Source: Pseudoflavonifractor sp. 524-17 | GTDB taxonomy: Bacteria; Bacillota; Clostridia; Oscillospirales; Oscillospiraceae | NCBI RefSeq assembly: GCF_009935845.1 | Contig: NZ_QWEK01000037.1 | Location: 1 to 35,333 of the forward strand | Length of the DNA stretch: 35,333 nt | Direction of reading: 5' to 3' | Shown: positions 21,138 through 24,379 of the stretch, one piece after another | How the letters are laid out: every line of letters starts with the position of its first letter | Position numbering within the stretch: the stretch's first letter is position 1 | The notes under the pieces: generated by a model | The model's database searches: none | Seen by the model: the letters and a program-made list of their open reading frames with translations, nothing else | Told to the model about the DNA's origin: nothing | Program-made: the position numbers and the translations under genes

Positions 21138-21178
21138 AGAGTTTTCTCCGAGTTTTTGTTGTGAGGAGGGAATCGTCC

Positions 21179-21958
21179 TTGACACGGATCATCACTGTTA
21201 CAAACCAAAAAGGCGGGGTGGGAAAGACCACCACCGCCTCTGCCCTTGTGTGCGGGCTGCACCAGCGGGGCGCCCGGGTTTTGGGCATTGACCTGGACCC
21301 CCAAGGCAACCTGGGCTTCACTCTGGGACTGGACATTGGCTCCGCCAGCACAGTCTACGACGTCTTCAAGGGCACCTGTCCAATTGAGGACGCCATCGTC
21401 CCCACCAAGTACGGCGACGTGCTCCCGTCGGATATTATGCTCTCCGCCGCCGAGGTGGAATTTACCGCCCCCCGCCGGGAGTTTATTCTGGACCACCATC
21501 TGTCCATGGTCCGCTCCCGCTACGATTTTGTCATCATCGACACGCCCCCCGCCCTCAATGTGCTTACTGTTAACGCCTACGTGGCCTCTGACGGGCTGAT
21601 TGTCCCCATGGAGGCGGAGGTGCTCAGCCTGGTGGGCATCACCCAGCTGCAGGAGACCATTGAGACAGTGCGCAACTCCTTCAACCCGAATCTGAAGGTA
21701 CTGGGCATTCTGCTCAACAAGTTCAACCCCCGGCTCACCCTGTCCCGGGAGATCCTGGATCTGGCGGAGCAGGTGGCCCAGCAGCTGGACGGCCAGGTGT
21801 TTGAGTCCAAAATCCGCCGGGGGGTGGGCGTGGCCATGGCCCCCGCCCATGGACAGAGCGTCCTCACCTTCCAGCCCAAGTCCAAGCCCGCCCAGGATCT
21901 TATGGCGGTGGTGGATGTGGTGGCTGGTCCAGACTTCCCCGCGCCCAAAGAGCCCTGA
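21179..21958 (+). CDS. ParA/Soj-family partition-type ATPase
   Basis: Deviant Walker ATPase that uses nucleotide-dependent dimerisation on DNA or membrane to position cargo. The 259-residue product has KGGVGKTT (11-18), DLDPQGN (39-45) and the hydrophobic strand FVIIDTPPALN (~117-127), as in chromosome-type Soj. TTG 21179 is chosen because GAGGAGGG (21163-21170) lies eight bases before it; GTG 21161 would overlap that site. No parB gene or parS site is seen beside it. It lies in a flagellar region lacking flhG, so a role in placing flagella or receptor arrays is possible but only inferred. A repeat element starts six bases after its stop. Confidence 0.85.
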   Translation: MTRIITVTNQKGGVGKTTTASALVCGLHQRGARVLGIDLDPQGNLGFTLGLDIGSASTVYDVFKGTCPIEDAIVPTKYGDVLPSDIMLSAAEVEFTAPRREFILDHHLSMVRSRYDFVIIDTPPALNVLTVNAYVASDGLIVPMEAEVLSLVGITQLQETIETVRNSFNPNLKVLGILLNKFNPRLTLSREILDLAEQVAQQLDGQVFESKIRRGVGVAMAPAHGQSVLTFQPKSKPAQDLMAVVDVVAGPDFPAPKEP

Positions 21959-21964
21959 GCGTTT

Positions 21965-22126
21965 AGAGGCCTGTTCCGCATCTCCCCGCGCACGTCTTGA
22001 CGGCGGATTTGTTGTTTTGACCGTGTTGAAAATCCTTGCAACCGGCGGGATTGCTGCGGCTTTTGTCTTGCAGGGCAAAGAAATCCACTCGCCAATCCTG
22101 CACGTTGAGATCTGGAAACAGGCTCT
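21965..22126. repeat. Palindromic repeat element, copy 1 (162 bp)
   Basis: Ends are inverted repeats: TTAGAGGCCTGTT on the left and AACAGGCTCTAA on the right, with further partial pairing inward. The right arm (22048-22126) aligns along its length with the right arm of copy 2 (22958-23037), sharing CTTGCAGG, AAATCC, CAATCC and ACAGG-Y-TCT. No open frame of note. It fills most of the 212-base gap between the ParA and ComFB genes. Confidence 0.75.
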
Positions 22127-22170
22127 AACAGACCGCTTTTATCGTTTATCGTTATAAAGGAGAATGATTT

Positions 22171-22863
22171 ATGGCGACGAAAGACAGTAAATCCAACACC
22201 AGCAAAACGGCCCATGTGCTCAATCTGTTGAGCAAGAATCGTGAAACCCCGCCCCAGGACACCCCGGCTGCGGAAGAAAAGGAGGGGACTGCCTCCGCCG
22301 CGCCGGCCCCTGCCGCCCCTGTGCCCCCCATTCTCTCCTCTCTGGCTCCGGACGCCGAGGTCTCCGTGCAGATTAAAGGTGCGCTGGAGGAGGCGCTGGA
22401 AGACGAACTCATCGAGACCGCCCCGGAGGAGGCCGCTCCTGTCCTTCAAGCTGAGGAGACCGCCCCGCCTCAGCCGGAAGAGGCTGCCCCCGCGCCCCAG
22501 GCCGAGGAAACCGCCCCGCTTCAGCCGGAGGAGGCTGCCCCCGCGCCCCAGGCTGAATCTGATTTGGAGCCCGAACCGGAGGAGGGCGATCTTGACTTTA
22601 CCTATGTCAATGTGATGCAGACTCTGGTGGAAGAAAATGTAGAGAAGTATATGAAAACCTTTGGTCTGTGTCAGTGCCCCAGGTGCATCTCCGACGTAAA
22701 AGCCCTTACTTTGAACAATCTTCCCCCAAAATATGTGGTTATCCGCCCCGGCGAGATGGTACCCCGCATCACCGTCTACGAGGGACGCTACAGCGCGGCA
22801 GTCACCGCCCAGCTCCTGCACGCCTGCATGGCTGTTATGGAGAAGCCACACCACGACCGGTAG
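22171..22863 (+). CDS. ComFB-domain protein with Pro/Glu-rich N-terminal region
   Basis: The C-terminal ~85 residues match the late competence protein ComFB family: VNVMQTLVEENVEKYMKTF, then CQCPRC (Cys167, Cys169, Cys172), a D-V-K-A-L-T-L-N segment and LPPKYVV. ComFB proteins have been reported as cyclic dinucleotide receptors in cyanobacteria; B. subtilis ComFB itself has no settled role. The first ~140 residues are low-complexity, Ala/Pro/Glu-rich, with two exact-length 17-residue repeats (93-109, 110-126). Start ATG follows AAAGGAGA (22156-22162) by eight bases. It is bracketed by the two repeat elements and follows the ParA-type gene. No comF operon partners are present. Confidence 0.82.
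   Translation: MATKDSKSNTSKTAHVLNLLSKNRETPPQDTPAAEEKEGTASAAPAPAAPVPPILSSLAPDAEVSVQIKGALEEALEDELIETAPEEAAPVLQAEETAPPQPEEAAPAPQAEETAPLQPEEAAPAPQAESDLEPEPEEGDLDFTYVNVMQTLVEENVEKYMKTFGLCQCPRCISDVKALTLNNLPPKYVVIRPGEMVPRITVYEGRYSAAVTAQLLHACMAVMEKPHHDR
22447..22548 (+). repeat. 51-bp tandem repeat in the ComFB-domain gene
   Basis: Two adjoining 51-base copies (22447-22497 and 22498-22548) encode QAEETAP-x-QPEEAAPAP. They differ at only a few bases, so the duplication is recent and copy number may vary between strains. Confidence 0.85.
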
Positions 22864-22873
22864 TCCCAATATA

Positions 22874-23037
22874 AGAACCTGTATTCACAACCGCGGAACG
22901 CCGGCTGACCAGGTCTTCTGCCGGCCTGCCGCGGCAAACAAGCTTGAAATCCACAAAGGATTCCTGCGCTTGTTTGCCTTGCAGGACAACAAAATCCCTT
23001 GGCAATCCAGCATCCCCCGGTTATGAATACAGGTTCT
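22874..23037. repeat. Palindromic repeat element, copy 2 (164 bp)
   Basis: Outer inverted repeat: AGAACCTGTATTCA at the left end and its exact complement TGAATACAGGTTCT at the right end, with further imperfect pairing inward. Inside is a perfect 11-base inverted repeat GGCAAACAAGC (22933-22943) / GCTTGTTTGCC (22968-22978). It starts ten bases after the ComFB gene stop, in the same orientation as copy 1, and ends at the edge of the terminator. Confidence 0.78.
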
Positions 23038-23074
23038 AAAAATGGTTCGGCACCGCGGTGCCGAACCATTTTTT
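23038..23074. terminator. Bidirectional terminator between the ComFB gene and the EAL/HDOD gene
   Basis: Near-perfect palindrome (AAAATGGTTCGGCACCG with its complement, no spacer) with A-run and T-run on the two sides, between converging genes. Confidence 0.92.
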
Positions 23075-23086
23075 CAGTGTATTCTG

Positions 23087-24379
23087 TCAGGAAACCGGCT
23101 GTGCGTCCTCCTCCGCCTCCTTCAGCTGATTCGGATACGGATTGGTCAGCTGCTCCCACAGCATATTCACATTCTCCATGCAGATGAAATAGACGCTGGT
23201 GATCAGGTTGCTGGGAATGCCCAGCTCGTCGGCTAGGGTGGTAATCCGCTCCCAGTCCGCCGCCTCATAGCACAGCACCAGCTCGTACAGCTTGCCGCAC
23301 CGGCCCTCCCGGCGGAGCAGAGCGTTTTTGATCTCATCCACCACCGGTACCTCCGCCACAATTTCCTCCATTGAGGCGTCGATCAAGTAGTTCAGCGTGG
23401 AGAACATACCCATCAGGTACGCCTCCGCCTTGGAAATGGGCATATCCTTGGCGTAGTTCATCAGTTCGCTGCAGAAATTGGCCCGCATAAAGGACAGCTT
23501 GAGGAACTCCTCCGATTCCGTGTCAGTCTGGTTTTCCGCATTACTGGCGCTGAGCAGGTAGACCCACTGCTTCAGCTGTCCCAGACCCAACGTCATAACC
23601 GCCTGATGAATTGTACTCGCCCGGTGGCGCAGCGCAAAATAGACAGAGTTCGCCATCTTCAGCAGGCCATAAGTCAAGCTGGCGTCCGCGGCAATCAGCT
23701 GCTCGATCTCATCCACATTTGGCTCATCCCGGGTTACCGCCACCATCAGCCGGAAGAAGTTGCTCTGGAGGTAGGAACCGCTGTGGGCCTTGGTTGTCAG
23801 CTTCTCCGCCACATAGGGCCCCTCCACCGCGTCCGCCTTCATGGCAATCGCCTTCTGGTGCAGCTCCGCACTGTCGATGTTGGTCACAATACACTTTTTG
23901 TTCATGCTATGAGCAATTTCAATGATATTGCGCATGTTTACATCGGTGCATGTCTGAATATTGATTTTGATATAGTCGATGCTGTCCATCAGTGCCAGGT
24001 ACCGTGGGGCGAATTGGAACTCATTGACCGCGACCTTATATCCCTCCTGAGCAAACTGCTGTACAAACCGCATGGACAGCGGGTGGATAATCACGCTGTC
24101 GTCAATCTGGATTACCAACTCGTTCTTGTCGAACAGCTTAGGGGTCTTTTTCATCAGCAGCATGGTGGTAAAGGTCATAAAACTGAGGGAGCCCCTCAAC
24201 ACCTTCGTAGAATTTTGGGTCAGAAAATTGTAGATCGTGTCAGCGGCGGCAAATTCCGTGCTGGAAGTTCCCTTTTCCCCGCTGAACGCCTGGTTTTCAC
24301 CATGGTACAATATTTCATGCCCGATAATATGCCCTGTCACATCTTTAATGGGCTGCCGCACAATGTATTTGCTGCTCAT
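23087..24379 (-). CDS. Degenerate EAL plus HDOD signalling protein (YuxH-like)
   Basis: A 430-residue regulator with an N-terminal EAL-like fold (1-195) and a C-terminal HDOD domain (~200-400). The EAL signature is lost: the position reads EILYH, and other metal- and base-coordinating motifs are absent (e.g. VIQIDDSVI). Phosphodiesterase activity is therefore unlikely, and it may act as a protein-binding module. The HDOD part shows LIAADASLTYGLLKMANSVYF and the QAVMTLGLGQLKQW helix, without catalytic HD pairs. It lies 19 bases after cheV at the end of the fla/che block, which suggests a link between chemotaxis and wider signalling; the partner is unknown. Confidence 0.85.
   Translation of the reverse strand: MSSKYIVRQPIKDVTGHIIGHEILYHGENQAFSGEKGTSSTEFAAADTIYNFLTQNSTKVLRGSLSFMTFTTMLLMKKTPKLFDKNELVIQIDDSVIIHPLSMRFVQQFAQEGYKVAVNEFQFAPRYLALMDSIDYIKINIQTCTDVNMRNIIEIAHSMNKKCIVTNIDSAELHQKAIAMKADAVEGPYVAEKLTTKAHSGSYLQSNFFRLMVAVTRDEPNVDEIEQLIAADASLTYGLLKMANSVYFALRHRASTIHQAVMTLGLGQLKQWVYLLSASNAENQTDTESEEFLKLSFMRANFCSELMNYAKDMPISKAEAYLMGMFSTLNYLIDASMEEIVAEVPVVDEIKNALLRREGRCGKLYELVLCYEAADWERITTLADELGIPSNLITSVYFICMENVNMLWEQLTNPYPNQLKEAEEDAQPVS

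Follow-up and report, generated by a model that had tools for sequence, protein, structure and literature searches.

Gene-less palindromic insertions around a ComFB gene and a probable MITE superfamily of Oscillospirales with one hairpin core and several kinds of ends

Described relatives and the elements of the window

MITEs are usually taken as the remains of one transposon each, defined by its ends, and they are usually grouped by the ends that they have in common with one insertion sequence (IS); it is usually the middle that is lost, while the ends are retained. ERIC/RU and Correia elements are intergenic repeats of 100-170 bp that resemble MITEs. Insertion sequences of the IS1031 group produce a 3-bp TNA target duplication. 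According to excerpts of the published accounts, members of the IS427 group are 832-865 bp long, mostly generate a 2-bp duplication and in some cases have two overlapping ORFs, and the IS5-group duplication is 4 bp (PMC3281130); a second excerpt gives bacterial IS5 duplications as ANT, not TNA (PMC4482050). QMITE2 of Coxiella is described, again in an excerpt, as having terminal inverted repeats (TIRs) of 23-29 bp and a core of 113-145 bp (PMC10969869).

The elements reported here are similar to bacterial MITEs such as QMITE2, as portrayed in that excerpt (PMC10969869), in being short and gene-less, in possessing TIRs and direct repeats, and in a predicted fold that takes in the whole element; here, however, the core is common across classes, the ends vary and many genera are involved. 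ERIC/RU and Correia elements are likewise MITE-like intergenic repeats, but of other bacterial groups. TIMEs, which are derived from Tn3, are likewise mosaic and non-autonomous with separable ends and core, but they hold on to one kind of end, 38 bp long and of Tn3 type, around a variable core (PMC4133298), the reverse of the pattern here. The window elements differ from the IS5 family in that they carry no transposase, and a literature search of open papers found no description of them.

The window, i.e., the whole stretch of 35,333 nucleotides analysed, is the entire contig C67 (NZ_QWEK01000037.1) of the 3.72-Mb draft genome of Pseudoflavonifractor sp. 524-17. A sequence-only reading had described a pair of related palindromes around a ComFB gene, each starting close to a stop codon. 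Both are present, and their bodies are refined here to 160 and 162 bp. Copy 1 (21966..22125, 160 bp, + strand) occupies the gap between the stop of a ParA-type ATPase gene (21161..21958, +, identified by Pfam) and the start of the ComFB-domain gene (22171..22863, +; Pfam PF10719, E 6e-16), and copy 2 (22875..23036, 162 bp, +) follows the ComFB stop and comes before a perfect 18-bp inverted repeat with a terminal T (23038..23073), which is likely a two-way terminator of the host. The closeness to stop codons also stands, with the ParA stop ending at 21958 and the ComFB stop at 22863. The convergent neighbour (23087-24379) encodes EAL and HDOD domains and adjoins a CheW-response regulator gene. 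As the earlier reading held, a transposase gene is absent from both copies, which are too short for one, and the adjoining called genes are ParA and ComFB.

Copy 2 is an intact class A MITE with ends GAACCTGTATTCACAACCG and GAACCTGTATTCATAACCG, whose TIRs are perfect over 13 bp and match at 18 of the first 19 bases, and it is flanked by a TAA target duplication on the left (22872..22874) and on the right (23037..23039). Copy 1 is a decayed MITE with class B ends, GAGGCCTGTTCC...GGAAACAGGCTC, and imperfect TIRs; its left flank, TTA (21963..21965), is a would-be target duplication, and the right flank differs (TAA, 22126..22128). A hairpin core of approximately 130 bp, common to elements with other ends, spans 22891..23020 (+) in copy 2, and its 105.9 bits with the core model R2 arise by construction because copy 2 belongs to R2. 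The corresponding conserved core of copy 1 (21982..22111, +), decayed and not included in R2, scores 48.5 bits with that model (E 4.6e-11).

Local alignment of the two copies gives a score of 49 against a dinucleotide-shuffle mean of 16.9 (z 12.8, reached by 0 of 1000 shuffles). The signal of kinship lies in the 79-base right arms (z 8.6, 0 of 1000 shuffles), with little in the left arms (z 2.4, reached by 24 of 1000), so that the arms do align better than shuffled sequence, the comparison named earlier as a possible refuter, clearly on the right and only weakly on the left. The earlier view of shared terminal repeats needs correction in that the two are kin but not equal: the ends of copy 1 are those of a sister class, B. 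Model R1 rests on 28 full-length class A elements, 10 of them from this genome and the others from relatives, and excludes copy 1; it gives copy 1 a score of 46.4 bits (genome-wide E 1.2e-8). A blastn search of its own genome with copy 1 returned no convincing second copy (best other E 0.5), and its placement is therefore owed to the covariance model and to class B relatives, not to blastn. Its local scores are 84 with the B element L273, 51 with the B element L268 and 49 with copy 2, and L268 scores higher with copy 2 (81) than it does with copy 1. As DNA, copy 2 forms a strong fold (z -7.7 against shuffles); the folding of copy 1 is not better than that of its shuffles (z -0.5).

Taken over all the evidence, the best explanation, which we hold with good confidence, is that gene-less MITE insertions and an order-wide superfamily, whose core would persist through transposase switching, lie behind this pair. 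Copies 1 and 2 would be two independent insertions of gene-less palindromic MITEs.

Copies, target duplications and placement

Model R1 yields at least 97 matches in the own genome, which collapse to at least 70 separate places; 61 of these reach E<=1e-3 and 55 reach E<=1e-5, and 28 are 155-175 bp long. All of these counts are lower bounds, as 150 of 1529 first-look candidates were scored, and both R1 and R2 hold sequences from genomes that were then searched, such matches arising by construction. A blastn search with copy 2 gives 84 matching pieces in the same genome. One near-identical pair differs at 2 of 162 aligned bases and by one gap, and some copies are shortened, the smallest being a palindrome of approximately 32 bp with little beyond the two ends. 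A separate size class of 214-218 bp has class A ends and extra inserted sequence (contigs C26, C46, C64 and C96 of genome G056; loci L169, L237, L239 and L252). In addition, a stretch of 3167 bp that includes one element is shared at 100% identity by contig C74 of the own genome (L003/L105), contig C70 of G056, which belongs to another genus (L060), and contig CANSQX010000070.1 of a metagenome-assembled genome (MAG) titled Flavonifractor (L261); C74, which holds one of the 70 places, may be a misbinned contig or a very recent transfer.

In a search at E<=1e-8, at least 18 of 300 family genomes, one being the own genome, contained class A elements, as did 0 of 5 further genomes of the same genus; this search and the corresponding class B search took at most 2 candidates per genome, so that their counts are lower bounds. 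Among the matches listed, the same ends are found on contigs titled Oscillibacter, Flavonifractor, Lawsonibacter, Angelakisella, Intestinimonas, Acutalibacter and others. The suggestion of a dispersed non-autonomous family is thus borne out by the places in the own genome, by target duplications and by further copies in relatives, and the genome-wide and relative searches disposed of the possibility, named earlier as a refuter, that there were no other copies.

Class A bodies start with GAACCTG and their flanks are mostly TNA. Identical flanking triplets (TAA, TTA or TGA) were observed in 20 of 29 full-length elements (one sequence being listed twice), and at 23 of 61 places in the own genome against 3, 1, 1 and 1 at control offsets, being absent at the other 38. 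They also accompany 52 of 74 end pairs no more than 260 bp apart on contigs fetched by end pattern; among the wider pairs, L199, L204 and L210 were read as enlarged or nested elements and the rest were judged from positions. L210 contains a B element nested in an A element, with TAA/TAA flanks of its own. On an IMG/VR viral contig (L265, 6116-6277), a class A element lies just 3′ of a tape-measure gene, with a tail-sheath gene nearby, which indicates that phages can carry these elements; collections of phage and plasmid records gave no blastn match to them. Defined ends, TNA duplications, the nested copy and the phage copy are marks of DDE-type transposition. Dispersed palindromes, a conserved hairpin with bulges and pairing at the DNA level would also suit elements of the REP/REPIN type, which a RAYT (Y1/HUH) transposase would mobilise in the form of single-stranded hairpins, but HUH transposition is not known to make target duplications, and these are present here. 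The unit of approximately 160 bp is likewise at odds with the 20-40 bp given for REPs in the excerpted source (PMC3733652), and we consider this origin extremely unlikely.

ComFB was found in 2 of 10 genomes of the genus, own included. In the other (G301, locus L299), the ParA stop is followed by two bases and then the ComFB start, neither element is present, and a terminator-like hairpin, read by eye, starts no more than 10 bases past the ComFB stop. The comparison of strains for empty sites proposed earlier thus produced one same-genus genome without either element at the orthologous locus; known from this one genome only, and with a ParA that is 62% identical, it represents absence at an orthologous locus, not a recent event. 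As a separate observation, many contigs of an Angelakisella-titled MAG (JAAWGY; L153, L157, L166, L181, L183, L192 and others) end 94-99 bp inside an element, as near-identical copies are expected to break assembly. Contigs of draft genomes do end inside these repeats, which can be masked or used to explain the breaks.

The 61 places at E<=1e-3, out of the 70, formed the placement set: 54 are intergenic, 6 lie in genes and 1 is at a contig edge, against a background of 95 kb in which 486 of 3711 TNA sites (13%) are non-coding. Gene calls were made with a home-made hexamer caller trained on 43 ORFs, which miscalled a minus-strand ORF over ComFB, and the neighbour call of copy 1 was replaced by hand. 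The tight spacing after stop codons had been taken to suggest an insertion rule, by which the elements would target sites just after stops, for example through a transposase attracted to terminating genes. Of the intergenic insertions, 10 of 54 are exactly at a stop codon and 21 of 40 have a facing stop no more than 15 bp away; with sites drawn at random from the TNA of these gaps, 10.28 and 17.5 would be expected, respectively (Monte Carlo p 0.64 and 0.09). Moreover, tandem, divergent and convergent gaps hold 32, 14 and 8 insertions, tracking a TNA supply of 266, 112 and 71, and the stops TAA and TGA are themselves TNA sites, which the duplication restores. Since positions and gap types match the random expectation for TNA sites in non-coding DNA, the rule is not supported, and targeting of stops is highly unlikely, even if a slight lean towards them may exist. 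The closeness to stops follows from the TNA target and from the survival of insertions in the short gaps of a genome that is approximately 90% coding. An annotation trap is thereby cleared, in that elements at stop codons need no targeting rule if the target is TNA.

Base pairing of the hairpin core

The sequence-only reading had also offered a structured 3′ UTR family and pointed to compensatory base changes as a check. Such changes are found: of the 48 consensus pairs in 28 elements, 27 have changed on both sides with the pair kept. Together with the strong hairpin of copy 2 (z -7.7) and a mild excess of elements oriented along the flanking genes in tandem gaps (24 along versus 13 against, n=37, at a score cut less strict than that of the placement count, n=54), they would be compatible with a structured RNA transcribed at 3′ ends as a terminator, stability element or regulator. 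The type of pairing speaks against it. Pairs were picked by Watson-Crick agreement only and wobble cells were then counted in 78 cores, which remained of 100 near-complete ones after dropping those more than 93% identical, the copies not being independent. The 78 cores and 34 pairs give 2624 cells, namely 2245 Watson-Crick, 71 G-U, 117 A-C and 191 other, and 28 of the 34 pairs have at least two Watson-Crick types. By pair, 13 have more G-U, 15 have more A-C and 6 are ties; 50 of the A-C cells sit in three pairs. In contrast, a control of 25 tRNAs from the same loci (300 cells) has 27 G-U versus 2 A-C, although its cut-off of at least 9 standard pairs out of 12 per tRNA favours it a little.

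As G-U does not exceed A-C, the pairing is strand-symmetric, and the conserved pairing looks to act at the DNA level. What stands of the earlier expectation is the pair-keeping changes, not an RNA-type signature. Rfam gave no match in the window at the gathering threshold, and a search of four loci at E<=1 gave two weak matches only, both outside the element of L111. In addition, 14 of 54 intergenic insertions are in divergent gaps, and an RNA gene is not expected to have target duplications. The RNA reading was rejected by the G-U/A-C test with its tRNA control, and on all counts a structured RNA family is very unlikely. The arms of the DNA hairpin could be kept alike either by selection on folded DNA or by hairpin-templated repair.

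End classes, transposases and the meaning of a common core

The core of approximately 130 bp is common to elements with differing terminal repeats, whose flanking duplications are apparently 2, 3 or 4 bp. Class B ends (GAGCCTGTTT...ATCTC) were found in L056/L268, L269, L273 and the nested copy of L210. A search of 300 family genomes with a B element matched at least 24, own included, in alignments that often cover only positions 24-148, and the ends left out of these alignments differ, forming classes C (GGAAACGCTGATTAAATC), D (GGCATCACCGCACAATT, flank CTAA) and E (GGGCACCTCTAAAAAC). Some class C copies have 4-bp flanks such as TTAG and TTAA; the C and D flanks were taken as the best match among lengths of 2-9 bp, and other C elements give other flanks or none. 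In the own genome, this core is also enclosed by three further kinds of ends, GAAGCTGTACCAATAGG (F), GGCCTTGTTTGAAAAATGTCAA (G) and GAGTCTGTTTCAAAACCGTCAAC (H), which brings that genome to five end classes (A, B, F, G and H) of the eight named overall. The flanks of most G and H copies share TA only, and those of A, B and F are TNA. The end classes were assigned by patterns, some labels being wrong, and the automatic end finder failed or erred for part of the loci. The elements L159 and L243 have hybrid A/B ends with TTA on both sides, and these matching flanks suggest that A and B ends work together; two further hybrid-ended candidates, L219 (TTA/TAA) and L245, have non-identical flanks, and neither L308 nor L320 is a true A/B hybrid.

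Among 394 genomes of the order, at least 145 have a match to the core model R2 at E<=1e-5, in 70 of 168 genera and 18 family labels, with rough E-values and at most 8 candidates taken per genome. Further end types appear in 30 R2 loci, in 21 of which the automatic end finder gave ends, some plainly wrong. In L057 (contig C9 of G266), the core match is flanked by a long repeat, AGTGTAGTGTATCACTGATAATC, possibly a further end type.

A common core of this kind could also be imagined as convergence, with several unrelated MITEs being brought together by palindrome shape, composition or one short motif; the intact elements are palindromes of approximately 160 bp, and cross-class mean core identity is modest (47-71%). 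Among the pairwise core-identity rows, B-G (77%) and B-H (95%) are in fact H rows because L111, a class H element, was labelled B, and A-B (84%) involves the hybrid L159. However, reversed loci, which keep composition and palindromes, give 0 matches to the core profile at E<=10, against 262 forward matches at E<=1e-5 (not all distinct, as they include overlapping loci and profile-building sequences). Copies of classes F, G and H are recovered by the class A model R1, with E-values from 3e-29 to 2e-9. The best B-C comparison has a core identity of 76% with 40% at the ends, and the best C-D comparison 84% with 56%, where random ends have a mean identity of 41% and a 95th percentile of 54%; a B element finds a C element by blastn at E 1e-23. 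When the apical motif is masked, a profile of 37 class A cores, run with lenient E-values against a set of 50 non-A cores, leaves 31 unmatched at E<=1e-3, as convergence on a short motif would have it, but still matches 19 at that level and 11 at E<=1e-5, with 0 of 50 for the reversed set. Of those 19, 9 or 10 are class G and 5 are class C. Convergence is thus left with little probability. The alignments point to arms that are also shared, certainly by classes A and G and by some of class C; the linkage of the other classes leans on the apical motif and stepwise similarity (B-C, C-D).

Transposases that might serve such ends were sought in several ways. In the relative G234, two elements, L075 (809 bp) and L078 (847 bp), both share TA at their flanks and enclose a PF13340 match that has one in-frame stop. 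Their ends are GAGTCTGTTTTAAAACCGTCAAAG, identical to class H at 21 of 23 bases, and GGGCTTGTTTGAAAAAT, identical to class G at 16 of 17, respectively; in L075, one end matches class H over 22 bases and the other over only 14. Judged from these alignments, class H and G ends resemble those of IS5-type insertion sequences in G234. In length and duplication, these two elements are like the IS427 group, and the 4-bp flanks of some classes resemble the 4-bp duplications of the IS5 group, as far as the excerpt describing both groups extends (PMC3281130). By analogy with the TNA duplication, classes A, B and F are assumed to belong with the IS1031 group, of which no corresponding IS was found. For the window copies, no autonomous partner, which would show GAACCTGTATTCA ends and TNA flanks, was found. 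The own genome has no PF13340 match and three PF01609 matches, none with class A or B ends. PF13340 matches in 17 genomes, end pairs in 20 own-genome stretches and end pairs in 118 GTDB and viral loci likewise yielded no IS bounded by ends of either class. Exact 13-base ends in 17 relatives, taken within any few kb, gave inward-facing pairs no more than 217 bp apart and no IS.

With convergence set aside, we return to gene-less MITEs of one superfamily, which are most likely moved in trans by IS5-superfamily (DDE) transposases. The family of the window copies inserts at TNA with a 3-bp duplication, and the core of the superfamily would persist by switching the mobilising transposase, as suggested by the combination of a shared core and differing ends. 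We infer that a change in one arm may be copied into the other by hairpin-templated repair, so that the two ends would evolve in concert. On the conserved apical motif, CTTGAAATACACAAAGTATTCCTGCG, selection probably acts in the form of folded DNA, its conservation being what suggests that the loop is read in that form. A bolder proposal, which we advance tentatively and regard as somewhat more likely to fail than to hold, is that one hairpin-DNA lineage persists across the order, keeping a core that folds as DNA and swapping its ends to suit the resident IS5-type transposase, with the palindrome changing both ends in step and the apical loop being recognised by a host factor or the transposase complex.

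Two MITE insertions such as those of the window are nothing unusual; the superfamily to which they belong is less commonplace. A core that is retained as the ends change would make the core the selected unit. If true, this would offer a natural system for studying by what means a non-autonomous parasite avoids being tied to a single transposase, and it would bear on why bacterial MITEs fold as long imperfect hairpins.
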